The position numbers were made by a program, and so were the translations under genes. 35,397 bases of DNA from Clostridia bacterium (GTDB lineage: Bacteria; Bacillota; Clostridia; Peptostreptococcales; Filifactoraceae). Positions 8,108-20,531 of the stretch are shown here, piece after piece. Every line of letters starts with the position of its first letter. The stretch's first letter is position 1. The notes under the pieces are model-generated. The model was not told the DNA's origin. It made no database searches and saw only the letters and a list, made by a program, of their open reading frames with translations. The DNA is taken from NCBI GenBank assembly GCA_009929415.1, contig SAAM01000004.1:1-35397 (forward strand), in the 5' to 3' direction.

Positions 8108-8755
8108 TTAGAATCCAAAATCGCCGTCAACGATTATGACTTTAATCCTGTTCTTTATCCTCTGATAACCAGTAAGTACTTCAGTGCAGCATATTCTCTT
8201 CTCTGATGCACAGTTTCTGCAGATTCCATCTATAGTGCAAGGCGTATTGCAGTCGAGCCTCATTGCATTTGCAGGTGCCGATATTTCCTTTACTCGTTTT
8301 CTGGCTTCTTCAGCATCTCTTACTATTTTGTTTGATCCTGCGATTACTATTACTTCTTTCGGTCCAAAAGAAATTGCAGCTACCCTGTTTCCATTACCAT
8401 CGATATTGAACAGCTCGCCTTTTTCAGTTATTGCATTTGTACCTGTTATGAAATAATCTGCAGTGAAGGCCTGTCTCTGTACTACCTGAACCTCTTCCGG
8501 AGTTATTCCCGGTCTTTCTCTGTCAATGTAATTATATACACCGCTTCTCAGGATTTCTACTATTCCAAGCTCTATTGATGTCATGCATCCGCCGGCAGTA
8601 ACCACTGAGTTCTCCCTGACAAGATCCTTGAATATTATCACAGCCTCTTCTGGAGTTTTTGCATAAAATGCTTCGATGTGATTTTTTTTCAATGCCTCTA
8701 CGGTCCTTCTGATTTTAAGGTCCTCACATTTTTTTATTGCATCTTTGAAATACAT
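8108..8755 (-). CDS. LUD-domain protein (lactate-utilization LutC/YkgG-like)
   Basis: A 215-aa protein with the LUD fold (formerly DUF162/DUF1121), recognisable from ENSVVTAGGCMTSIELGI, ADYFITGTNAITEKGELFNIDG and FGPKEVIVIAGSNKIV. A cysteine-rich segment, C169-X3-C173-X5-C179-X2-C182-X6-CC190, could bind metal or an Fe-S cluster. LutC is part of the LutABC lactate oxidation complex, but lutA and lutB are absent here, and stand-alone LUD proteins have no settled function. GGAGG is 9 nt before the ATG. The gene begins 14 nt after the cyclodeaminase-family gene, so the two form one operon downstream of the proline-reductase genes. Confidence 0.85.
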   Translation of the reverse strand: MYFKDAIKKCEDLKIRRTVEALKKNHIEAFYAKTPEEAVIIFKDLVRENSVVTAGGCMTSIELGIVEILRSGVYNYIDRERPGITPEEVQVVQRQAFTADYFITGTNAITEKGELFNIDGNGNRVAAISFGPKEVIVIAGSNKIVRDAEEARKRVKEISAPANAMRLDCNTPCTIDGICRNCASEKRICCTEVLTGYQRIKNRIKVIIVDGDFGF

Positions 8756-8769
8756 TGCTCTATTCCTCC

Positions 8770-9783
8770 TTAATCAAAATCAACGACAAGTCCAACTCCA
8801 AGTTCTACAGCCTTTTTGTATATGCTCTCTGCCGCCACAAGATCCTGCGCGGATATCCCTACGCTCTTGAATATCGTAATCTCGTCTTCGGTTTCTCTGC
8901 CTGGTACTTTGCCCAGTATCAGATCTCCTATCTCACCCGTGTAAAAATCATCACTGAGTATCCCTGCATCAATAAGCTGGGTAAAGTCTCCTGCCTCTTC
9001 GAGCATCGCATCTCTGTCGTCTATATATACCTTATCTGCTGTAAGAACTGTAGTCTTGTCCATCTCACACATCTGCTTCGTATATGAGCCTACACCTGAA
9101 ATGTGGACACCTGACTTGAGAAGGTTTCCATCAAACAGACCCCTGTCCGATGTTGTAGCAAGTACAATTACGTCTGCTTCCGGTACTGCATCGTTTCCAT
9201 CCTTGTATGCAGTGATATTAACATTCTTGTTTTCTTCGCTGACTTTCATGTATGGTATGATTTCGCTCATTTTCTCACAGAAATTTATCGTCTTCTCGAA
9301 ATTTCTTCCTACCACTCTTATCTCATCGAATTTTCTAGTAGCTATCATAGCCTCAAGCTGTTTTTCAGCCTGTCCGCCAGTTCCAAAAAGTACTCCCGTC
9401 TTTACATTTTCTCTTGCCAGAAGCTTTATTGAAGCTCCTGTAGCTGCTCCGGTTCTCATTTTTGTGACGTAGGTTCCATCGATAAGCGCCTTCACTTCTC
9501 CGGTTTCTACCTCTAGCATCACTATCGTTGCATTAACAACCGCTTTTCCTTTTGCTGAATTCTGAGGAAAAACGGACACTATCTTTGCTCCAAGATATCC
9601 CTTTTCTTCTACAAGACCAGGCATGAAGAGTGCATTTCCCTGAACGTGTTCAACCGTGAGCTTGCTTCTTACAGGCGACTTGACCTGCTTTGATGAGCTC
9701 AGCGCAAAAGCCTCCGTAACTGAGTCGATACAATCCTGCATGGTGTAGATTTTGTCTATGTCTTTTCTTGTCAATATAAGCAT
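8770..9783 (-). CDS. Ornithine cyclodeaminase / mu-crystallin family enzyme
   Basis: A 337-aa NAD(P)-dependent enzyme. Lys67 (GAKIVS), Arg110 (KMRTGA) and the dinucleotide loop GTGGQA (134-139) match the family. True ornithine cyclodeaminase converts L-ornithine to L-proline and ammonia, which would feed the proline reductase encoded just upstream. However, the segment where classic cyclodeaminases carry GDCPGKTE (the catalytic Asp) reads GVGSYTKQMCEMD (230-242). This is closer to alanine-dehydrogenase, ketimine-reductase or pyrroline-2-carboxylate-reductase members. The substrate is therefore open. GGGAGG precedes the ATG. The gene follows the TSUP permease after a terminator and is coupled to the LUD gene. 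Confidence 0.85.
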   Translation of the reverse strand: MLILTRKDIDKIYTMQDCIDSVTEAFALSSSKQVKSPVRSKLTVEHVQGNALFMPGLVEEKGYLGAKIVSVFPQNSAKGKAVVNATIVMLEVETGEVKALIDGTYVTKMRTGAATGASIKLLARENVKTGVLFGTGGQAEKQLEAMIATRKFDEIRVVGRNFEKTINFCEKMSEIIPYMKVSEENKNVNITAYKDGNDAVPEADVIVLATTSDRGLFDGNLLKSGVHISGVGSYTKQMCEMDKTTVLTADKVYIDDRDAMLEEAGDFTQLIDAGILSDDFYTGEIGDLILGKVPGRETEDEITIFKSVGISAQDLVAAESIYKKAVELGVGLVVDFD

Positions 9784-11034: not shown

Positions 11035-12039
11035 TTATTTAAGGATAAATCCGTGCTTAAGTGGATCTGTCTCATCTATTACAAAGTGGTTGAATCCTGT
11101 GATATATGCTGAACCTGCGATTTTTGGTATTACCGCATCATAGTCAGCAACTTTTGTAGTGCCTACTATTTCTCCATAGAAAAGAGTTCCAAGTATGCTC
11201 TCATATACGAATTTCTCACCAACAGCTATTTCACCTTTTGAGTGAAGAGTTGCCAGTTTTGCAGAAGTTCCAGTACCGCACGGCGATCTGTCAACCTGTC
11301 CCTGTCCGAATATAACAACGTTCTTGTATGTTGCTTCCGGATGTGTTGGCTCATCATAGATTTCAACAAGGTCTACTGTCTTGATATGAGCAAGAGTAGG
11401 ATGCTGGATCTCGATCTCAGCGTTTATTATATCTCTGAGTCTTAGGGCAACTTCTGTAAGTCTTCCAGTATTCTCAGGCTTGATTTCAATTCCAAGCTGC
11501 TTAGCGTGAACTATAGCAAAGAAGCTTCCGCCAAATGATATATCAAAAGTTACTTCTTTTCCATCAAGCATAACCTTCTGCTCTTTTTTGTAGTGGAATG
11601 CTGGAACGTTAACGAATGAAACGCTCTGAACTTTTCCGTTTGCAACCTGAGCTTCTGCTTTTACGATTCCAGCTGGAGCCTCAAGCACTACGTGAGTAAC
11701 AGGCTCAACCATTGGAACCATTCCAGTTTCTATGGCAGCAGTAACTGCACCTATAGTACCGTGTCCACACATGTTAAGGTATCCGCCGCCGTCCATGAAT
11801 ATTATACCAAGATCAGCTTCATCAGTAGTTGGAGCTGTTATTATAGAACCAAACATATCGTTGTGTCCTCTTGGCTCAAGCATTATAGCCGTTCTCAGAT
11901 AGTCAAGTTCCTTCTCAAGATACTCTTTCTTCTCTGGCATTGTCTTTCCTTTTATGTTAGGAATTCCTCCAGTAACTATTCTTGTAGGTTCTCCTGCTGT
12001 ATGAGAATCAATTGCCTGTATTCCTCTTGAAAAAATCAT
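11035..12039 (-). CDS. prdF: Proline racemase
   Basis: Interconverts L- and D-proline by a two-base mechanism without cofactor, supplying D-proline to the reductase. It has 334 aa, and both catalytic cysteines are in their conserved settings: Cys91 in MCGHGTIG and Cys254 in DRSPCGTGTSA. The N-terminal AIDSHTAGEPTRIV is the family signature. The ATG is preceded by GAGG with 7-nt spacing. The prdE stop is only 3 nt upstream, which implies translational coupling. It is the last gene of the prd operon. 4-hydroxyproline epimerases share the fold, but the operon makes proline the likely substrate. Confidence 0.96.
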   Translation of the reverse strand: MIFSRGIQAIDSHTAGEPTRIVTGGIPNIKGKTMPEKKEYLEKELDYLRTAIMLEPRGHNDMFGSIITAPTTDEADLGIIFMDGGGYLNMCGHGTIGAVTAAIETGMVPMVEPVTHVVLEAPAGIVKAEAQVANGKVQSVSFVNVPAFHYKKEQKVMLDGKEVTFDISFGGSFFAIVHAKQLGIEIKPENTGRLTEVALRLRDIINAEIEIQHPTLAHIKTVDLVEIYDEPTHPEATYKNVVIFGQGQVDRSPCGTGTSAKLATLHSKGEIAVGEKFVYESILGTLFYGEIVGTTKVADYDAVIPKIAGSAYITGFNHFVIDETDPLKHGFILK

Positions 12040-12042
12040 AGC

Positions 12043-12510
12043 TTATCCTCGCTTTCTCATTTTAAGTTTCAAAAATGCTGCTGCTTTTTTTGCATCCAGC
12101 GTATCAGTTGTATTTTCACCGACTACTTCGGTTTCGATACCCTCTTTTGACTTGTTGATGTCTACAATCGTATCCATGTATTTGTTTGTCACGACAAACT
12201 TTGCCTGGACTCCGTTGAACGTAACCCCGACAAGCGGAATGTTTCGCTTTCCTATTTCTTCAAGGGTATTTGCATAATCAACATGCGAATTTCCCCATCC
12301 GTCACAGGAAACGATGCATCCATCGACTCTCATGGACTCAAGCCACTGAGCTGTCCTTTGTCCTACTCTCTCTTTTTCTTTATTGTCCTGAGGAGTTCCC
12401 ACAAGGATTACTCCCACAAGATCAATGTCTGTATCATTTGATAATACATCCACTAATGGATCCCTAAAATGATGCAGGCTTGTCTCTTTTGTAGATGGTC
12501 CTATACCCAT
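12043..12510 (-). CDS. prdE: PrdE, homologue of the PrdA C-terminal (pyruvoyl) half
   Basis: A 155-aa protein that aligns along most of its length with PrdA from Cys420 onward (GIGPSTKETSLHHFRDPLV versus IGPASKECSRHYFREPLVL; INKSKEGIETE versus NNKSKQGIENE). After the initiator Met it carries Gly where PrdA has the Cys that becomes the pyruvoyl group, so it cannot form that cofactor itself. It lacks the ~50-residue C-terminal tail of PrdA. GGAGG precedes the ATG, 12 nt after the prdD stop. The role is unproven; with PrdD it may aid assembly or processing of the reductase. Confidence 0.92.
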   Translation of the reverse strand: MGIGPSTKETSLHHFRDPLVDVLSNDTDIDLVGVILVGTPQDNKEKERVGQRTAQWLESMRVDGCIVSCDGWGNSHVDYANTLEEIGKRNIPLVGVTFNGVQAKFVVTNKYMDTIVDINKSKEGIETEVVGENTTDTLDAKKAAAFLKLKMRKRG

Positions 12511-12522
12511 TTTATACCTCCA

Positions 12523-13281
12523 TTATGTCATCGACCTGAGTGCACCATCTCTGTACTCGTTAGGAGACAGTACTACCGGCATATTTGCCATATCTATTAT
12601 TGAAAGGCCTCCCGTATATCCGGAGGGTTGATCAGGGAACAGCTGATTATCGTACATGGCTCCCTGTCCTGCAATCTGCTTAACCAGTGCGACCTTTTTT
12701 GCGCCTTTTCTGATGCGGTCATAGAATTCATGAACCTCAGTTGCTGATCTTGGCTCAAGCTTCTTCAGCTCAGCTCTTATTGCATCTATCATCTCATCGC
12801 AGGCTTTGAATGCCGATATAGGAAGCTTTCTTTCATAAGGAAGCCCACCTTCAACAAGCACGTCCATATGGATTATATAGTCTGATTTTTCTGGTGTTCC
12901 AGCTCGTCCAAAAACCATCTGGTCCTTCAGATTGCCTTCTGATGATCCAAATTCATGCATCTGTCTACCGTCGGCATCACAACCTGTCAGCATAACGTAT
13001 GCACCAGTCATTGTATATGTAATGCCTTCTCCAAGCTTTCCAAGTACTTTAACCGACATTGGCACTATGTCCATGATAGTGTTGATCTGTCTGTCGTGGT
13101 CATAAGGATTTATTATGTCTATCTTTATGTCCTTGATCGTAGGATCCTGAGCTATCAGTTTGTTTGTTATTTTTTTATCAATTTTGAGTATGCCATTTGA
13201 AAACTCAAATTTATCTGCAAACTCAACTCCTTTTACGTGAAAAGATCTGATTACTAATCTGCGTAAATCTATAGTTTCCAT
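12523..13281 (-). CDS. prdD: PrdD, homologue of the PrdA N-terminal part up to the processing site
   Basis: A 252-aa protein matching PrdA from about residue 173 to Thr419 (GEGITYTMTGAYVMLTGCD versus GSGVTRMLDGVIMMVTGTD; EFGSSEGNLKDQMVFGRAG; IAGQGAMYDNQLFP; NMPVVLSP). It ends ...DGALRSMT, exactly at the residue preceding the PrdA scissile bond. It lacks the Ala/Pro-rich N-terminal part of PrdA. The start is placed at the ATG at 13281; an in-frame GTG three codons upstream (13290) lies inside the AGGTG ribosome-binding site. A strong hairpin separates it from prdB. Confidence 0.92.
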   Translation of the reverse strand: METIDLRRLVIRSFHVKGVEFADKFEFSNGILKIDKKITNKLIAQDPTIKDIKIDIINPYDHDRQINTIMDIVPMSVKVLGKLGEGITYTMTGAYVMLTGCDADGRQMHEFGSSEGNLKDQMVFGRAGTPEKSDYIIHMDVLVEGGLPYERKLPISAFKACDEMIDAIRAELKKLEPRSATEVHEFYDRIRKGAKKVALVKQIAGQGAMYDNQLFPDQPSGYTGGLSIIDMANMPVVLSPNEYRDGALRSMT

Positions 13282-13302
13282 ATTATACACCTGCTTATTT
13301 TT

Positions 13303-13337
13303 TTATGCAGGAGAGGGAAATCCCGTCTCCTGCATAA
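13303..13337 (-). other. Intercistronic hairpin between prdB and prdD
   Basis: The arms TTATGCAGGAG and CTCCTGCATAA (11 bp, perfect) enclose an inner GGGA/TCCC stem. On the minus strand it is followed by AAAAAAATAAG, so it is not a terminator. The likely role is a stabiliser or processing barrier that sets more PrdA/PrdB than PrdD/E/F. This is inference from structure and position. Confidence 0.7.
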
Positions 13338-13359
13338 TATTTGTATTTAATTCTTAATC

Positions 13360-14085
13360 TTATACGTGTGCGTGGTACTCGAATGGTAGTGGTACTATCT
13401 TTCCTGCGCTTGGTATTTTTATAAGCTCTTCAAGTGTTGCTTTTACTATTGCTGTCTGCATTTCTGGATTGTTTGGCTCTCCTGCATTTGCTCCCATTGG
13501 TACTAGTGGTGCAACTGCTCTTGGAGTTCCGTTTTGTCTAACTACTGGAGGTAGAGCTGCTATTATTATTGTTGGTATTCCCGCAGCTTCGATTGCTCTC
13601 TGCACGATCACGGCAGAGCGGTGGCATGTACCTCAGCCAGCTGTAAGAAGAACTGCATCTACATTTTCATCTTTAAGTTGCTTAGCGATCTCAGGACCAG
13701 TTTCTTCAGTGAATTTAGCCTGGTCTCCTCCACCACCCATGAATCCAAAGTGTATTGGAGCTACTGCCTTGATGAATCCCTCTGCAGCAAGTTCCTGTAA
13801 TCTTTCGATAGGGAACATACAGTTGACGTCTTTGTTAACGTCTCCGTTATCGTATCCACCGTGTGATACCATAAGCGCTTCGCCTTTTGTATCTCCAGGG
13901 ATTGCTCTGAAAGAGAAATCTCCTGCAAGGTTAAATCTTTTATCTGTTTTTAGATGCACACCTGCTGCTGTCGCAAGGGCAACTACTGAATCTTTAAGTT
14001 CTTTTGTAACTGGTGTCCACACTGGTGGAGGGGTTACAGGAACAAATATTTCTGACTGAAGTCCTTTAACTACTGTAAGACTCAT
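13360..14085 (-). CDS. prdB: D-proline reductase selenoprotein subunit PrdB (in-frame UGA = Sec151)
   Basis: The 26-kDa selenoprotein subunit of D-proline reductase, which reductively opens D-proline to 5-aminovalerate with PrdA. An in-frame TGA at 13635..13633 splits it into two apparent ORFs. Reading through gives 241 aa, with Sec151 in AG-U-GTCHRSAV, a UxxC redox motif with Cys154. A hairpin downstream of the UGA suits a bacterial SECIS. The N-terminal part (SEIFVPVTPPPVWTPVT) and the later IIAALPPVVRQNGTPRAV match the glycine/betaine/sarcosine/proline reductase selenoprotein B family. GGAGG precedes the ATG. It needs SelA/B/C/D, which are not encoded here. Confidence 0.97.
13598..13618 (-). 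promoter_or_regulatory. Putative SECIS hairpin of prdB
   Basis: CTCTGC (13618..13613) and GCAGAG (13603..13598) form a 6-bp stem with a 9-nt loop containing G/U residues, starting 14 nt after the UGA. Distance and shape suit a bacterial SECIS inside the reading frame. Confidence 0.6.
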
Positions 14086-14105
14086 TATTATATTCCTCCT
14101 TTTCC

Positions 14106-14363
14106 TTACTTTTCTTTATTTTTTTTATATTCCAGATTCTGAGCGTATTTCTCATTTATTTCAGGTCCCAGCACCTCGGGATAACTCATTAAGAATCCTA
14201 CTTCCAGTCCCAACTGTGGTTCATAATCTGTTATGAGCATCCTTTTTGGTACGCTCAGATGACCAAGTCTGCCCTTAAGGTCTATTCCTACCGAACCGTC
14301 TTTAACATCTACTATTACGCCTTCCACATATCGCTCCGTAGAAGTATATCTTAATTTGTCCAT
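14106..14363 (-). CDS. Conserved small protein between prdA and prdB
   Basis: An 85-aa soluble protein in the proline reductase operon. It has no catalytic motif that I recognise. The middle (YVEGVIVDVKDGSVGIDLKG) is beta-rich and looks like a small barrel, and the C-terminal part is charged and helical, ending in a Lys-rich stretch. A gene of this size occupies the same slot in other clostridial prd operons, and it may belong to the family named CBO2463/CBO2479 in databases (recalled, unchecked). GGAGA precedes the ATG. It starts 32 nt after prdA and ends 20 nt before prdB. A role in assembly or maturation of the reductase is a guess from position. Confidence 0.85.
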   Translation of the reverse strand: MDKLRYTSTERYVEGVIVDVKDGSVGIDLKGRLGHLSVPKRMLITDYEPQLGLEVGFLMSYPEVLGPEINEKYAQNLEYKKNKEK

Positions 14364-14395
14364 CGTATATCTCCTTTATTGCCAGGCTTTTATTA

Positions 14396-16270
14396 TTAAG
14401 CCTCTACTTCGTAGATTTCTGCTCTCTTCTTGCTCTTTGGAAGAACTTGCTCATTGTCTTCAAGCTCTATCTTCATTTCGTAAGCTTTTTCAATCATCTC
14501 AACGTTGTTAAGCTTAACGTTTGGATTCCATTTTCTTTCAGCTTCTTTAACTTCTTCGCCAGCCATTACAGTCTTAAGCATAGCAACTGCTCTTATTGCG
14601 TCTTCTGGTGATAAAGTGTTGTTTGCAAGTATTTCGTTTTCTATACCCTGCTTTGATTTGTTGTTGTCAACCATGTTTTTCATGTATTTGTTACCAACAA
14701 CTAGAGCTCCCTGAACTGCTGAGTAAGATACTCCTACTACTGCAACTCCTCTTGATCCTATTTGCTCGTGGTGAGAAGCGAAGTCTATGTGGTTGTTTCC
14801 GAATCCTTCAGTTGTTATGATAGCTCCGTCTACGTCCATAGCCTCTACCATCATTCCAAGTCTGTTAGATACGTAGAACTTCTCTGAGTTAACCTGTGGT
14901 GATCCTACAAATATTACTCCGCAAAGGTCAAGCTCTTCGTCCTGCATAGCCTTAAGAACTAGTGGCTCTCTGAAGTAGTGTCTTGAACACTCTTTAGAAG
15001 CTGGTCCTATACAAGTAAGTGCATGGATTCCTCCATCAAGAACCTCAAGTGGTGAAAGAACTACCGGAAGGTTTCCAAGGTCAACGTTTGGCTTAGCTCC
15101 AAGTGTTCCAACTGGCTCAACTGGAAGGATAAGGTTGTCGTGCATTGCTCCCTGTCCCATGATTTCTTTTACTACTACTACTTTTTTCTTTCCTGGTCTT
15201 CTCTTTTGAACAAAAGTCTCTTCGTTTACACAAAGTGCTTCGTCTGCCGCTTTAAGTGCTTTTCTGATTTCATCAGTTATGAAGTCAGATGCCTTGTGAG
15301 CAGCAAGAGGTCCTGGTCTTTCCATGTTAGTGTGTGCTTTGATAACTACTTCTGTCTTTATGAAGATTTCGCCTTTATCTGGTGCTCCTGGTCTTCCCCA
15401 CATGATATTTCTGTCAAGTGGTCCTTCTGAAGATCCGAATTCTCCGATTTGTACTCCGCCTTCATCAGTTCCAGTTACCATCATGATAACACCGTCAAGC
15501 ATTCTTGTAACACCTGATCCAAGCTCGCCTTCTTCTTTAGTAGCGATTGGCTGAACGTCCATTATAGTCTCTGAATGAGTGTCATATTTGTCTGGAGTTA
15601 TTATTTCAACTTTTAGAGAAACTACAAGGTCTTCTGAATCTACTGCTTCTTTTTCGATTCCTTCTCTGATGTATAGTGTTGTTCCTTCGATCTTTGTCTC
15701 TGGTCCAAACTCAACCTTCTCTATTTTGAAGTGTTTTCTTGTAAGGCTTCTTAAAACCTTCTCTTCTGCTGCTGCCGCTACTGCTGCAGGAGCTTCAACG
15801 ATTGCTGCTGCTGGTGCTGCAACTGCTGGTGCTACTCCCATCTGAGCTGCTACGCCAAGAGGTATTTCAAGATCTATGTTCTTTCCTTCACCTATGTGGA
15901 TTCTTACTGCTCCACCGTTTGATGCTGGCATTACTGGTGCTGCAACTGGTGCTGCAACTGGCGCTGCAACCGGTGCTGCTTCAGCCACCTCTACTTTTTT
16001 CTCTTCTGCTGCTGGAGCTGCTATTCCTTCTACCACCTCTGCTGTAAGTGGTGTAAGAGCATCAACTGTCTTAGTTAATTTTGCTCCTAATACTTGCTCG
16101 ATTGTTAGACAATCATCTGATATATTAAGAAGTCCTGAGTCCTGTAAATCAGCAAATATAGCTGGGTCTTCAAGGTTTGATACTTCAATAACAGTTCCTG
16201 CTTCAAATCTACAGCAAGAAACTGCAGGGTCTTTAGCATGAGCCTTAGCTGTTTCTAAAGTTATTGACAT
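14396..16270 (-). CDS. prdA: D-proline reductase proprotein PrdA (pyruvoyl-forming)
   Basis: A 624-aa precursor that cleaves itself to give the two non-selenium subunits of D-proline reductase. The processing site is Thr419-Cys420 in HALTCIGPASKE; Cys420 becomes the pyruvoyl group that binds D-proline as an imine. Residues 1-80 form a Cys-containing N-terminal region. Residues 88-170 form an Ala/Pro-rich linker with a four-fold VAAP repeat, interrupted by a short ordered block. Residues 173-419 and 420-570 are homologous to PrdD and PrdE. GGAGG lies 8 nt before the ATG. The gene lies 63 nt after the prdC stop, with no promoter visible in the gap, so it is probably transcribed from the promoter before prdC. 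Confidence 0.97.
   Translation of the reverse strand: MSITLETAKAHAKDPAVSCCRFEAGTVIEVSNLEDPAIFADLQDSGLLNISDDCLTIEQVLGAKLTKTVDALTPLTAEVVEGIAAPAAEEKKVEVAEAAPVAAPVAAPVAAPVMPASNGGAVRIHIGEGKNIDLEIPLGVAAQMGVAPAVAAPAAAIVEAPAAVAAAAEEKVLRSLTRKHFKIEKVEFGPETKIEGTTLYIREGIEKEAVDSEDLVVSLKVEIITPDKYDTHSETIMDVQPIATKEEGELGSGVTRMLDGVIMMVTGTDEGGVQIGEFGSSEGPLDRNIMWGRPGAPDKGEIFIKTEVVIKAHTNMERPGPLAAHKASDFITDEIRKALKAADEALCVNEETFVQKRRPGKKKVVVVKEIMGQGAMHDNLILPVEPVGTLGAKPNVDLGNLPVVLSPLEVLDGGIHALTCIGPASKECSRHYFREPLVLKAMQDEELDLCGVIFVGSPQVNSEKFYVSNRLGMMVEAMDVDGAIITTEGFGNNHIDFASHHEQIGSRGVAVVGVSYSAVQGALVVGNKYMKNMVDNNKSKQGIENEILANNTLSPEDAIRAVAMLKTVMAGEEVKEAERKWNPNVKLNNVEMIEKAYEMKIELEDNEQVLPKSKKRAEIYEVEA
15932..15979 (-). repeat. 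Four tandem 12-bp repeats in prdA
   Basis: Four near-identical 12-bp units (GCAGCACCAGTT-like) encode the repeated Ala-Ala-Pro-Val linker. Such a repeat can change copy number by slippage without a frameshift and would only alter linker length. Confidence 0.85.
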
Positions 16271-16333: not shown

Positions 16334-17611
16334 TTAGCTTTTCTTTTTTCTATACAATCTGTGTCCACCTGCTCTTAATGTGTGGTCTGTACTGTGATAT
16401 ACGGCAATTCCTAACCTAGGCGCCACTTGCATAACTGTGTTAGTTCAGTCCTCACAGGTGCCGACGATTATAGCCTCTGCACCTTGTTTCTTAAGCTCAA
16501 GCACCTTTTCTGCCTGTCCCGGACAAATTCCAGGAAGCGTGCAGCGGAATCTTCCATTGATTTCTTCCATTCTCTTGCACTTTACTGAAGCAACTACGGT
16601 TCCTCCCATAGCTTCTGCAAGCTCTGTAAGTCTTTCCTTCTGAGCTCCGCATTCACATTCGATCATTCCGAATTTTCTGTGGTCTTCAGGGAATGGCACT
16701 GCAACAAGTATTCCACCAAGTGTCTTAACTATTCTTGCAGACTCTTCTCCATGCTTTCCTGTGAAAGGTCCTCCAAGAACTATTTCGCCATGAGGCTCAA
16801 CATATCCGCCTGACTGGTCGATGTAGTGCTTGATTTCCATGCCCAGTGGAACTTCTCTGTAAACGGAAGGTTTAGCAACTCTGCCGCCTACTGTGATGTC
16901 CTTAGTTATAACTGGCATCTTCTTCTCTATTGCATAAGTAACGTTCTTAAGTGTCTCAACGTTGCTTATTATAGCATTTGCCTCGCTTGGAAGTGCTCCA
17001 AGCGGAAGCTCAACTCCAAGAAGCTCTCTAACGATTACTCTCTCATCTCCTGCAGGATACATGTCAGAAAGGAATTTAACCTCTACTCCTTCTACGTTCT
17101 TGCATGCCTTTGCAACAGATATCATAGCTTTCTGATGCTTTGGTTTTATTGCGATGTAACCATGAGTTGCTCCTGTGATTTCCATCACATATTTGATACC
17201 TCTTACTACAAGCTCTGGCTCGTTTTCAAGCAGATGCATGTTGTGCGCAAGCAGTGGCTCGCATTCAGCAGCATTCGCAAGGATATATCCGCCTTCAAGC
17301 TTTGCCTTGAATTTTACATGTGCAGGGAAACCTGCTCCACCGGCACCTACGATTCCGGCTTCCTCTATAAGTGACAAGTGATCTTCTGATGTAAGTCTCA
17401 CGTAATCATCCATGTTGATCTCGCCGACAGCTTCAATAGCTATTTCGTTTTCGTTAATTTCAACTATCTTTCCATTAGCGCTGGCATGAATATTTGCTCC
17501 GAGTCCAGCCGGCTTTGCGATAAGCTGTCCACGTTTTACTTCATCGCCAACCTGAACAACAGGCGTGCACGGTGCCCCGACATGTTGTCTTAACGGTAAA
17601 ACTAACTTCAT
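16334..17611 (-). CDS. prdC: PrdC, RnfC-like electron-transfer selenoprotein (in-frame UGA = Sec389)
   Basis: Thought to pass electrons from NADH to D-proline reductase. The N-terminal RnfC-type domain (LRQHVGAPCTPVVQVGDEVKRGQ) is followed by the NAD-binding loop GIVGAGGAGFPAHVKF and a central SLBB-like region. The apparent stop at 16447..16445 is TGA. Reading through adds 37 codons to a TAA at 16334, giving 425 aa with C386-E-D-U389, a CxxU redox motif, and a coherent tail (NTVMQVAPRLGIAVYHSTDHTLRAGG region) ending in basic residues. The ATG at 17611 is the chosen start, 8 nt from GGAGG; the in-frame GTG at 17620 overlaps that ribosome-binding site. It is the first gene of the operon. Confidence 0.93.
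16403..16424 (-). promoter_or_regulatory. Putative SECIS hairpin of prdC
   Basis: Starting about 20 nt after the UGA, GGC/GCC outer pairs and a CCTA/TAGG stem with a GGT apical loop can fold within the reading frame. It is a plausible SECIS, with a weaker stem than that of prdB. Confidence 0.5.
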
Positions 17612-17710
17612 AGCTCCCACCTCCTATTATTATTTTTTCATATAGAATTTCATATATCGTCTGTATTGATATTGATTTTATTGATGATTCTATTTGATTT
17701 CTTTATAACA

Positions 17711-17739
17711 ATTATATGATAAATATTTAATTAACGCAA
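17711..17739 (-). promoter_or_regulatory. Promoter of the prdC-prdF operon
   Basis: The minus strand reads TTGCGT (17739..17734), exactly 17 nt, then TATAAT (17716..17711), about 100 nt before prdC. It is a sigma70-type promoter. I looked for a -24/-12 (sigma54) element in this gap and found none with the right spacing. Confidence 0.78.
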
Positions 17740-17740
17740 G

Positions 17741-17756
17741 TGTTAGTTTTCCGACA
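17741..17756. promoter_or_regulatory. Proximal palindrome, candidate PrdR site
   Basis: The minus strand reads TGTCGGAAAACTAACA, a dyad of the form TGTyr-N6-yrACA. It abuts the -35 box of the prdC promoter, and its centre is near -44 relative to the predicted start. It resembles a second palindrome 99 bp upstream. The position suits a sigma70-contacting activator. Confidence 0.5.
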
Positions 17757-17839: not shown

Positions 17840-17855
17840 TGTCGTTTTTTCGACA
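17840..17855. promoter_or_regulatory. Distal palindrome, candidate PrdR site
   Basis: TGTCG-N6-CGACA, a perfect 16-bp palindrome (minus strand TGTCGAAAAAACGACA), lies just after the prdR stop. Centre-to-centre distance to the proximal copy is 99 bp. An overlapping TCGAC-ATA-GTCGA dyad is at 17850..17862. With no U-tract it is not a convincing terminator. Confidence 0.5.
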
Positions 17856-17865
17856 TAGTCGAATA

Positions 17866-19269
17866 TTAGACAGTTTGATTTTTCTTGGTTTTTTTTGATT
17901 TCTTCTCACTCTTCTCTTTTATGCCATAAAGATCTATCTTGTATATGAGAGTTGTGCGGGGTATGTTGAGCATCCTTGCTGCTTCCGATTTGTTCCAGTT
18001 GGATTTATTCATCACATTTTCAATTATATCCTTTTCAAACTCCCCGACGCTCTTTGCGAGGTCATTTACCTGCAGATTCGCTCTCGCATAGCTCTTTACA
18101 CTTTCCTTTATGGATATCGGAAGCATGTCTGTGGTTATAGTCTTCCCTCCGCTCATTACAACTACATGCTCTATTATGTTCTGAAGCTCTCTTATGTTCC
18201 CCTTCCAGCTGTACTGCATGAGTATGTCTACGACTTCCGGGTCGAGCTTTGGTATCTCCAGGTTGTATTTTTCGCACATTTCCTTCATGAAGAGGTCTGC
18301 AAGCAGCGGGATATCTGATTTTCTCTCTCTAAGAGGCGGAACTGTAAGTTCTATGACGTTGAGGCTGTAATAAAGCTCCTCAAGAAATACACCCGTTTCT
18401 GTCATTTCCTCTATATTCTTGTTTGTACCGCTTATTATCCTCACATTGATCTTTATGTGCTTTCCGTCGCTTGTCCTTACTATTTCATTTTTCTGAAGCA
18501 GATTGAGCAGCTTAGCCTGCATGCTTAATGGCATTTCTGTTATCTCTCCGAGGAATATAGTTCCCTGGTCCACTATTTCAAACAGCCCTGGTACGTTTTT
18601 ACCTGTTCTGGGATCTGTGCTTCCAAAAAATTCACTTTCGAATATCTCATTTGGTATAGCGCCGCAGTTGACATGGACAAACGGCCCCTTCCTCTGACTC
18701 ATCTCATGTATCCTTCTTGCCAGCGCCTTTTTTCCTACTCCACTCTCTCCAAGTATCATCAGCGGAGTATCTGTCCTTGCAACCTTGGCGGCCTTGTACA
18801 TAAGGTCTTCCATCTGAATGCTGTTTCCTGCTATCATGGTATTTTTGTTCATTTCAGCTTTTCTCTGAATTTCAAGATAGTTGATTTTGTCTTTGAGCTT
18901 GTCCACCTGCCTGGTCAGACGGTCTATCTCACTGAGGTCCTTGTCGACGCACAGCGCTCCTACTTTTTCTCCATCTATATATATTATCTTTGCATTTACC
19001 AGTATATTGCATCCGGTCCTTGTCGACTGGTATATGTTCTCCATATCTTCGCCTGATTCAAGCACCTTCATTATAACGGTATCCTTCAGCACTGAATCCA
19101 TTCTCTTTCCTATAAGTTCTTCTTTTGTTACATCATATATCTTTTCTGATTTTTCGTTCCACACATGCACTATGCCGTCATTATCCACTATGCAGATGGC
19201 TTCGTCTATGACGTCAAGTATGAAATCTCTGGCAGCCGTGTCAAGAAACACCTCAAACTTCTTATTCAT
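17866..19269 (-). CDS. prdR: PrdR, PAS/AAA+/Fis-type regulator with a degenerate sigma54-activator domain
   Basis: The proline-responsive regulator of the prd operon by position and architecture. In 467 aa: PAS domain (about 15-110), coiled coil (112-140), AAA+ domain (144-385), Fis-type helix-turn-helix (405-450, NWNKSEAARMLNIPRTTLIYKI) and a Lys-rich tail. Walker A GESGVGKK (174-181) and GNIREL (sensor II) are kept. The GAFTGA loop is replaced by STDPRTGKNVPG (217-228), Walker B reads GTIFLGEI (Asp to Gly241), and the FRxDLYYRL finger region reads FLEELYYSL, losing both Arg. It therefore probably does not remodel sigma54, and TyrR is the precedent. The start has GGAGG 6 nt upstream. Confidence 0.93.
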   Translation of the reverse strand: MNKKFEVFLDTAARDFILDVIDEAICIVDNDGIVHVWNEKSEKIYDVTKEELIGKRMDSVLKDTVIMKVLESGEDMENIYQSTRTGCNILVNAKIIYIDGEKVGALCVDKDLSEIDRLTRQVDKLKDKINYLEIQRKAEMNKNTMIAGNSIQMEDLMYKAAKVARTDTPLMILGESGVGKKALARRIHEMSQRKGPFVHVNCGAIPNEIFESEFFGSTDPRTGKNVPGLFEIVDQGTIFLGEITEMPLSMQAKLLNLLQKNEIVRTSDGKHIKINVRIISGTNKNIEEMTETGVFLEELYYSLNVIELTVPPLRERKSDIPLLADLFMKEMCEKYNLEIPKLDPEVVDILMQYSWKGNIRELQNIIEHVVVMSGGKTITTDMLPISIKESVKSYARANLQVNDLAKSVGEFEKDIIENVMNKSNWNKSEAARMLNIPRTTLIYKIDLYGIKEKSEKKSKKTKKNQTV

Positions 19270-19367: not shown

Positions 19368-20531
19368 CTAACTGCTTCGTACCGTGCTGTGATACCTGAA
19401 TTTCCCGCTACTGACCTGCATAACAACTACATCCTTGAGTGCATCTCCGTTTTCGTCAAAGGATATTGTGCCTGTGGCTCCTCTGAAATCTGAAGTGGAG
19501 GCTATCTCATCTCTCAGCTTTTTGCCGTCTTCTGCAGTGCCTGCCCTTTTTATGGCTTCTATTATTATCCTGTAGGAATCATATCCGAGAGCTGAAAGCG
19601 ACAGAGGCTCACGGCCGTATTTTTTCTTATACCTGTATATGAATCTTCTTGAGGTCCAGCTTACAGGTTTTTCTGAGGAAAAGGATGTAGTGAGCATAGA
19701 GCCTTCCACAGTTTCTCCTCCAAGGCTAAGGAATTCATGAGTTTCCCATGTGTCTCCTCCAAGGAACTGCGATCTTATTCCCATTCTTTTTGCCTGCCTT
19801 ATGAGCATAGCCGACTGCGTAAAGCCTCCCGGTGCAAATATAACATCAGGCTTAAGTTCATATATCTTTTCAAGTATTGAGGTAAAGTCTGTTTCGCTAC
19901 TCTCATATCCTGCTTCATAGATTATTCCTGAGCTGTTTCCTGCAAGCTCCGTGAACTCCTTTTTAAAGAATGCCGCCAGCCCCTGTGAGTACTCACTGCC
20001 TTTTTCGTATAAGATTACCGCGGTAGCCGCCTCAAGCTCTTCGTGAGCCATCTCTGCCAGTACCTTTCCCTGGAAGGAATCCAGGAAGCTCGCTCTGAAG
20101 TAATAGTCATTTTCCGCGGTTACCTCAGGATTGGTAGCCGATGGAGCTATGGCCGGTATGCCTGCGCTGCTGAAGGACTGCCCGGATGCAATAGAAAGGC
20201 TCGAGCCCCATGATCCAATAACCGCAGACACGCCGTATTCTTTTATCAGCCGGTCTGCCAGCCTTCTGGATTTTTCTCTGTCCGACTCATTGTCTGCGAT
20301 TACGAGCTGCACCTTTCTTCCGAGCACCTCTGGAAACATCTCGTTAGCAAGTTTTATGCCTTCAAGCTCCAGCCTTCCTCCATCTTCAGCTGCTCCGCTG
20401 AGAGGCTCGAGCACTCCTATCTTTATTACCTCAGGTTCTGACTGCTCGTCCTCGAGCTGTGAAATTGAACAGCCGCCAAGCACAAGCACTGCCGAAAGGA
20501 GCAGAGCCGTCAGTTTTATGTATGTCTTCAT
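19368..20531 (-). CDS. Orphan amino-acid ABC transporter substrate-binding lipoprotein (LivJ-like)
   Basis: A 387-aa lipoprotein. The signal peptide ends in the lipobox LGGC (Cys21), so it is anchored to the outer face of the membrane. The mature part has the periplasmic-binding-protein type I fold of branched-chain amino acid receptors (IKIGVLEPLSGAAEDGG; GIPAIAPSATNPEVT; DVIFAPGGFTQSAML; ALGYDSYRIIIEAIKRAG). No permease or ATPase gene is next to it, so it either works with a transporter elsewhere or acts as a sensor. GGGGG lies 7 nt before the ATG. It is directly upstream of prdR in the same direction with no terminator between. Confidence 0.88.
   Translation of the reverse strand: MKTYIKLTALLLSAVLVLGGCSISQLEDEQSEPEVIKIGVLEPLSGAAEDGGRLELEGIKLANEMFPEVLGRKVQLVIADNESDREKSRRLADRLIKEYGVSAVIGSWGSSLSIASGQSFSSAGIPAIAPSATNPEVTAENDYYFRASFLDSFQGKVLAEMAHEELEAATAVILYEKGSEYSQGLAAFFKKEFTELAGNSSGIIYEAGYESSETDFTSILEKIYELKPDVIFAPGGFTQSAMLIRQAKRMGIRSQFLGGDTWETHEFLSLGGETVEGSMLTTSFSSEKPVSWTSRRFIYRYKKKYGREPLSLSALGYDSYRIIIEAIKRAGTAEDGKKLRDEIASTSDFRGATGTISFDENGDALKDVVVMQVSSGKFRYHSTVRSS

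Follow-up and report, generated by a model that had tools for sequence, protein, structure and literature searches.

Promoters of the σ54 and σ70 types work by unrelated mechanisms, and explanations of how an operon moves between the two have been mostly guesswork. The prd locus studied here raises this question in a concrete form. Its regulator, PrdR, is labeled σ54-dependent by annotation, and a reconstruction of Clostridiales regulons lists PrdR only as such (PMC6615313). A preliminary description of the locus had proposed that this PrdR has lost the parts needed to act on σ54 and is a proline-responsive, TyrR-like regulator of a σ70 promoter. Which machinery do the regulator and its promoter use, and did they change it together?

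The prd locus and its regulator

The window (the whole stretch of DNA that was analyzed, 35,397 nt) is a contig of a metagenome-assembled genome from the genus of Proteocatella sphenisci. The contamination estimate of this assembly is 7.6%, but the locus is confirmed because the isolate genome of P. sphenisci DSM 23131 carries the same prd locus, with a PrdR that is 92% identical to the window's. The prdR reading frame spans positions 17866–19269 of the minus strand exactly, has no internal stop codons and lies directly upstream of prdC in the complete gene order prdR-prdC-prdA-prdA2-prdB-prdD-prdE-prdF (Table 1).

The protein has Pfam matches to PF00158 (AAA) and HTH_8, and its best curated model is TF_PrdR (NF041552; E = 3.4e-154, 514 bits). 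The score falls under the model's cut-off of 795 bits because model positions 1–135 are unmatched. The N-terminal CBS pair that these residues form in the intact PrdR of locus L107 is absent here, a difference that the preliminary description did not mention. In a phylogenetic tree, the window protein falls inside PrdR and groups with prd-linked PrdRs (SH-aLRT 95), and its gene lies beside prdC and prdA. Its exact place within PrdR is unsure because the branch leading to its clade is long (1.63 changes per column). Judged by its sequence, the window protein is an orthologue of PrdR, yet it lacks the features that define a σ54-dependent activator.

Several neighboring features were also observed. 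The mechanical gene call for prdC stops at an in-frame TGA, while the frame runs on (minus strand, 16335–16446) as EDUTNTVMQVAPRLGIAVYHSTDHTLRAGGHRLYRKKKS and is kept in all five genomes of the window's clade, which suggests that PrdC is a selenoprotein extended by a short C-terminal segment. An extra short reading frame precedes the full prdA in L094, L103, L104 and L107 and matches only the first ~140 PrdA residues. Downstream of prdF lie genes of the ornithine cyclodeaminase family and with a LUD domain (8108–9783, minus strand), and the former could provide proline from ornithine. Directly upstream of prdR, a Peripla_BP_6 gene (a periplasmic amino-acid-type binding protein; 19368–20531, minus strand) is kept in P. 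sphenisci; no transporter genes were seen adjoining it, and it may be linked to prd.

Table 1. Features of the prd locus in the window, with positions counted from its first nucleotide
Feature	Positions	Strand	Remarks
prdR	17866..19269	−	PAS-AAA(+)-Fis-type HTH regulator, 467 aa, no N-terminal CBS pair; syntenic orthologue in P. sphenisci
Walker A GESGVGKK, residues 174–181	18727..18750	−	Lys kept
L1 loop GSTDPRTGKNVPG, residues 216–228	18586..18624	−	GAFTGA lost; four residues shorter than in intact PrdR
Walker B GTIFLGEI, residues 236–243	18541..18564	−	Asp replaced by Gly241
Arginine-finger region FLEELYYSLN, residues 295–304	18358..18387	−	Arg replaced by Leu296 and by Ser302
HTH recognition region SEAARMLNIPRTTLIYKID	17932..17988	−	Resembles that of intact PrdR
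Distal PrdR-type operator 1 TGTCTAATATTCGACT	17857..17872	−	Overlaps the prdR stop codon
Distal PrdR-type operator 2 TGTCGAAAAAACGACA	17840..17855	−	Dyad arms perfect
Proximal PrdR-type operator TGTCGGAAAACTAACA	17741..17756	−	One base from the −35
−35 TTGCGT	17734..17739	−	3/6 to TTGACA, weak; TTGC invariant in 5 genomes
−10 TATAAT	17711..17716	−	6/6; 17-bp spacer; invariant in 5 genomes
prdC	16335..17620	−	In-frame UGA (Sec392), conserved C-terminal extension; first gene behind the promoter
prdA, prdA2 (85 aa), prdB (Sec at in-frame TGA), prdD, prdE, prdF	11035..16270	−	Presumed operon after prdC

PrdR has lost the motifs for acting on σ54

We compared the motif residues of the window PrdR with those of intact PrdRs, and the losses named in the preliminary description are all present. 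The GAFTGA loop, GYEAGAFTGASKKGKIG in intact PrdR, is replaced by GSTDPRTGKNVPG; the Walker B Asp is Gly241, with Glu242 retained; and both arginine fingers of the intact FR.DLYYRLN are changed, to Leu296 and Ser302. The parts said to remain do remain, by residue comparison and Pfam match: sensor II (GNIREL), the Fis-type HTH and Walker A, which differs from the usual GESGTGKE by T to V and E to K and retains Lys180. The AAA fold is retained in an AlphaFold2 model (mean pLDDT 78.6), whose best PDB matches are σ54 activators and relatives (the AAA domains of FlrC, NtrC1 and FleQ). These replacements indicate that contact with σ54 has been lost and, very probably, ATP hydrolysis as well.

PrdR of P. 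sphenisci has the same motif state at the same syntenic locus. In the three genomes of the sister genus g4, whose PrdRs are 57–59% identical to the window's, GAFTGA, the Walker B Asp and the first arginine finger are lost and the second is retained (YYRL). In genome G059 of the clade, the Walker B Glu of PrdR is missing too (YLSGI), which shows that erosion of the active site has continued. In genus g2 of the same family, all PrdR motifs and the −24/−12 promoter are intact. The comparison of orthologues that the preliminary description had proposed was carried out across the order: 9 of 82 PrdR-like proteins have no recognizable GAFTGA, five in the window's clade and four in a second group, g8, and we mapped these losses on the tree.

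The loss is specific to prdR because the genome retains rpoN and activators with GAFTGA. The relatives have rpoN too, and the motif, read in five other activators of the window's genome, is GAFTGA or a conservative variant in each, which rules out a genome-wide loss of σ54. Also ruled out are another intact PrdR outside this locus (the other activators are at most 39% identical, and the −24/−12 target is gone) and, by the same losses in the syntenic P. sphenisci isolate and by dN/dS, an assembly or sequencing error or a pseudogene. A partial second rpoN-like match on a short contig (G000:C307:34-348) is probably contamination of the assembly.

A putative operator adjoins a σ70-type promoter upstream of prdC

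The DNA between prdR and prdC has the arrangement TGTCGGAAAACTAACA-C-TTGCGT-17-TATAAT in the window, TGTCGAAAAACAAACA-C-TTGCGT-17-TATAAT in P. sphenisci and TGTCGAAAATCGGACA-C-TTGCAT-17-TATAAT, plus two variants, in g4. The operator starts 40 bp before the start of the −10 in each of the clade's five genomes, which span two genera, and it fits the PrdR motif published as TGT-N10-12-ACA (PMC6615313). With a transcription start placed from the −10 at ~17704, the proximal operator would be centered at about −44.5. This operator-promoter block is conserved in the five genomes; most other intergenic DNA has diverged, except the tandem pair of distal operators, which lies beside the prdR stop codon and is recognizable in all five loci.

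We searched 11 whole genomes of the family for the composite of operator + N + TTG-N20-TATAAT. Exact matches occurred only at the prdC promoters of four genomes (G000, G021, G082 and G059), and the prdC promoter of G076 has the composite with two mismatches. A mechanical promoter scan requiring at least 4/6 per hexamer found 6 promoters where 7.6 were expected, and did not list the prdC promoter with its weak −35. In five genomes, the putative PrdR operator lies beside a TATAAT promoter with the spacing unchanged, which supports the earlier proposal of a TyrR-like regulator at a σ70 promoter; as far as sequence can tell, this is the arrangement of the GAFTGA-less relatives that act with σ70.

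The −24/−12 promoter is missing where PrdR is degenerate

We built a position weight matrix (PWM) from eight published C. difficile −24/−12 sites (PMC7438776), for which the 99th percentile of shuffled sequences is 10.7 bits. Sites of at least 11 bits occur upstream of prdC or prdA in 41 of 46 loci with intact PrdR versus one of nine with degenerate PrdR (Fisher p = 9e-6, which is descriptive only because the threshold was picked after seeing the scores and the rows are related). After inspection of the five low scorers, and with L185 and L186 excluded as not assessable (the locus edge cuts prdC), all 44 assessable loci with intact PrdR have a −24/−12 site. L138, L161, L147 and L103 were considered as exceptions and rejected; their −24/−12 cores had been missed by the PWM, the strict pattern or the 700-bp range. 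The centers of operators of the TGTC-N8-GACA type in these 44 loci lie 60–292 bp (median 140) upstream of −24/−12, where operators were called with one mismatch allowed and single calls may be due to chance.

We looked for a −24/−12 promoter before prdC or prdA, which would have argued for σ54, and found none: the best PWM score is at most 6.0 bits in the window and the four genomes closest to it, and no site reaches 14 bits anywhere in the full 35.4-kb window. Our search likewise found no close orthologue with these residues that had been shown to need σ54. The PrdR with experimental evidence is that of C. difficile, with published −24/−12 sites (PMC7438776). Its genus-level orthologue here, L107, is so assigned because its promoter sequences are identical to the published ones; it has these sites and an intact GAFTGA.

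A second lineage with altered loops and promoters

The second group, g8, belongs to the same family as the Clostridioides-like loci and comprises eight genomes with PrdR, of which four are GAFTGA-less. In L094, L102, L103 and L104, GAFTGA is intact and a −24/−12 site lies 140–141 bp past the operator start. The altered loops read GAIRGG (L095 and L097), GEYKGG (L096) and NDYEGN (L101). The L094 PrdR (genome G070) has no CBS domains, yet keeps GAFTGA and −24/−12, so that loss of the CBS pair alone does not imply independence from σ54.

In L095, L096 and L097, no −24/−12 site was found in 16–17 kb. These loci have lost the −24 element and retain the former −12 as TTGCTATAAT, which can be read as an extended −10 (TGcTATAAT). 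The distance from the operator start to TATAAT is 76–77 bp, versus ~157 bp to the matching position in intact relatives; the operator is thus ~80 bp closer to the promoter, which here lies ahead of prdA, in three of the four GAFTGA-less g8 genomes. In L101, GAFTGA is lost, yet TTGACA-18-TATACT is overlaid on a −24/−12-like site, and the sequence reads as a hybrid or intermediate promoter.

From a PrdR tree with the motif columns removed, we infer three losses of GAFTGA, two of them forced by well-supported branches. The five loci of the window's clade share one ancestral event. A single origin of the loss is disfavored (AU p = 0.026, with the caveats of long branches and post-hoc grouping). 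With only three losses in the whole data set, the association between regulator and promoter cannot reach significance by independent pairs. On balance, we lean toward the reading that PrdR left σ54 at least twice within one order, with the promoter switching each time: in the window's clade by an operator set against a weak −35 and strong −10, and in g8 by loss of the −24 and reuse of TTGCTATAAT as an extended −10. If true, this would be a repeatable route for an operon from σ54 to σ70 that leaves the regulator, its binding specificity and its target genes unchanged.

Proposed mechanism and alternatives

The regulator and the promoter appear to have switched machinery together, as the σ54 parts of the protein are lost and the operator adjoins a σ70-type promoter. 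PrdR is probably a former σ54 activator that now serves as a TyrR/VpsR-like, σ54-independent regulator, most likely an activator, at a σA (σ70-type) promoter of prdC-prdA-prdB-prdD-prdE-prdF. In the mechanism that we propose, the Proteocatella PrdR would descend from a σ54-dependent enhancer-binding protein whose σ54 activity is gone. A dimer bound to the operator at about −44.5 would touch RNA polymerase in the −35 region and activate transcription, and the two distal operators, ~100 bp upstream, may raise occupancy through oligomerization. The PAS domain would convey the signal, perhaps together with nucleotide bound at the Walker A that remains; this signal is presumably proline, as assumed by analogy with C. 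difficile. We infer DNA binding, use of σA and activation rather than repression.

Repression is the main rival to activation. PrdR could repress the σA promoter, or regulate it both ways as TyrR does: without proline it would bind at −44.5, possibly in a loop with the distal sites, and block RNA polymerase until proline releases it. Two distal operators and one proximal operator would permit looping, and TyrR, a σ70-acting family member, represses at some promoters. However, the proximal site stops short of the −35 and leaves the −35, −10 and +1 uncovered, a weak −35 paired with a perfect −10 is characteristic of activator-dependent promoters, and the ancestral PrdR was an activator, according to work on C. 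difficile cited in PMC7438776. We therefore regard repression as unlikely.

The loss of several catalytic motifs and of the CBS domains could also mean that prdR is a relic, with a vestigial operator and a prd operon on a constitutive or otherwise controlled σA promoter. This is very improbable, as prdR is under strong purifying selection (ω = 0.03 within g4, pair L089/L090; low dN with saturated dS within g1, with dN = 0.056 between the window and P. sphenisci, L015), and two genera whose PrdRs are ~58% identical have conserved the HTH, the operator and its spacing. Least credible of all is a PrdR that still depends on σ54 through its divergent loop, at an unrecognized σ54 promoter: rpoN is retained and other activators tolerate some variants of the loop (PMC6615313), but here a shorter segment stands in place of the entire loop, catalytic and trans residues are missing as well, nothing −24/−12-like is found in the window, and intact relatives, including genus g2, keep both motifs and promoter.

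In the prd case, the same regulator, operator and target genes stand on either side of the proposed switch to σA. Intermediates survive in relatives, namely CBS loss with GAFTGA intact, a hybrid promoter and partial loss of the active site, and P. sphenisci DSM 23131 is a cultured species in which direct tests are possible. Proline reduction is a main Stickland pathway, and it would be assigned wrongly if published σ54 regulons were extended to these bacteria.

Comparison with known systems

PrdR of Clostridioides difficile (NF041552) is like the window PrdR in its prd-adjacent position, PAS-AAA-HTH order, HTH and operators of the TGTC-N8-GACA type. It differs in having the CBS pair, GAFTGA, the Walker B Asp, both arginine fingers and −24/−12 promoters (PMC7438776), none of which the window has. 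Our literature search found no description of a PrdR without GAFTGA, although one may exist.

Established relatives that lack GAFTGA and act with σ70 include TyrR, DhaR and HupR (PMC3162934), and VpsR and the NtrC proteins of Rhodobacter capsulatus and Caulobacter (PMC10274813). Like these, the window PrdR has lost the loop in an otherwise conserved, selected protein, and the sequence evidence suggests that it works as they do. TyrR and DhaR of Escherichia coli are σ54-activator descendants without GAFTGA function that act with σ70 (PMC3162934), and differ from the window PrdR in signals, targets and lineage (Proteobacteria). VpsR of Vibrio cholerae also has no GAFTGA and regulates σ70 promoters (PMC10274813); it responds to c-di-GMP and phosphate, going by a title cited there, where PrdR has a PAS domain instead. 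In NtrC of R. capsulatus and Caulobacter, the L1 loop is deleted from an orthologue of a classic σ54 activator, and these proteins are reported to act on σ70 promoters (PMC10274813), but they are two-component response regulators, unlike PrdR. The kind of protein is thus known, while the matched, position-specific switch of regulator and promoter, and its apparent recurrence, appear to be new.
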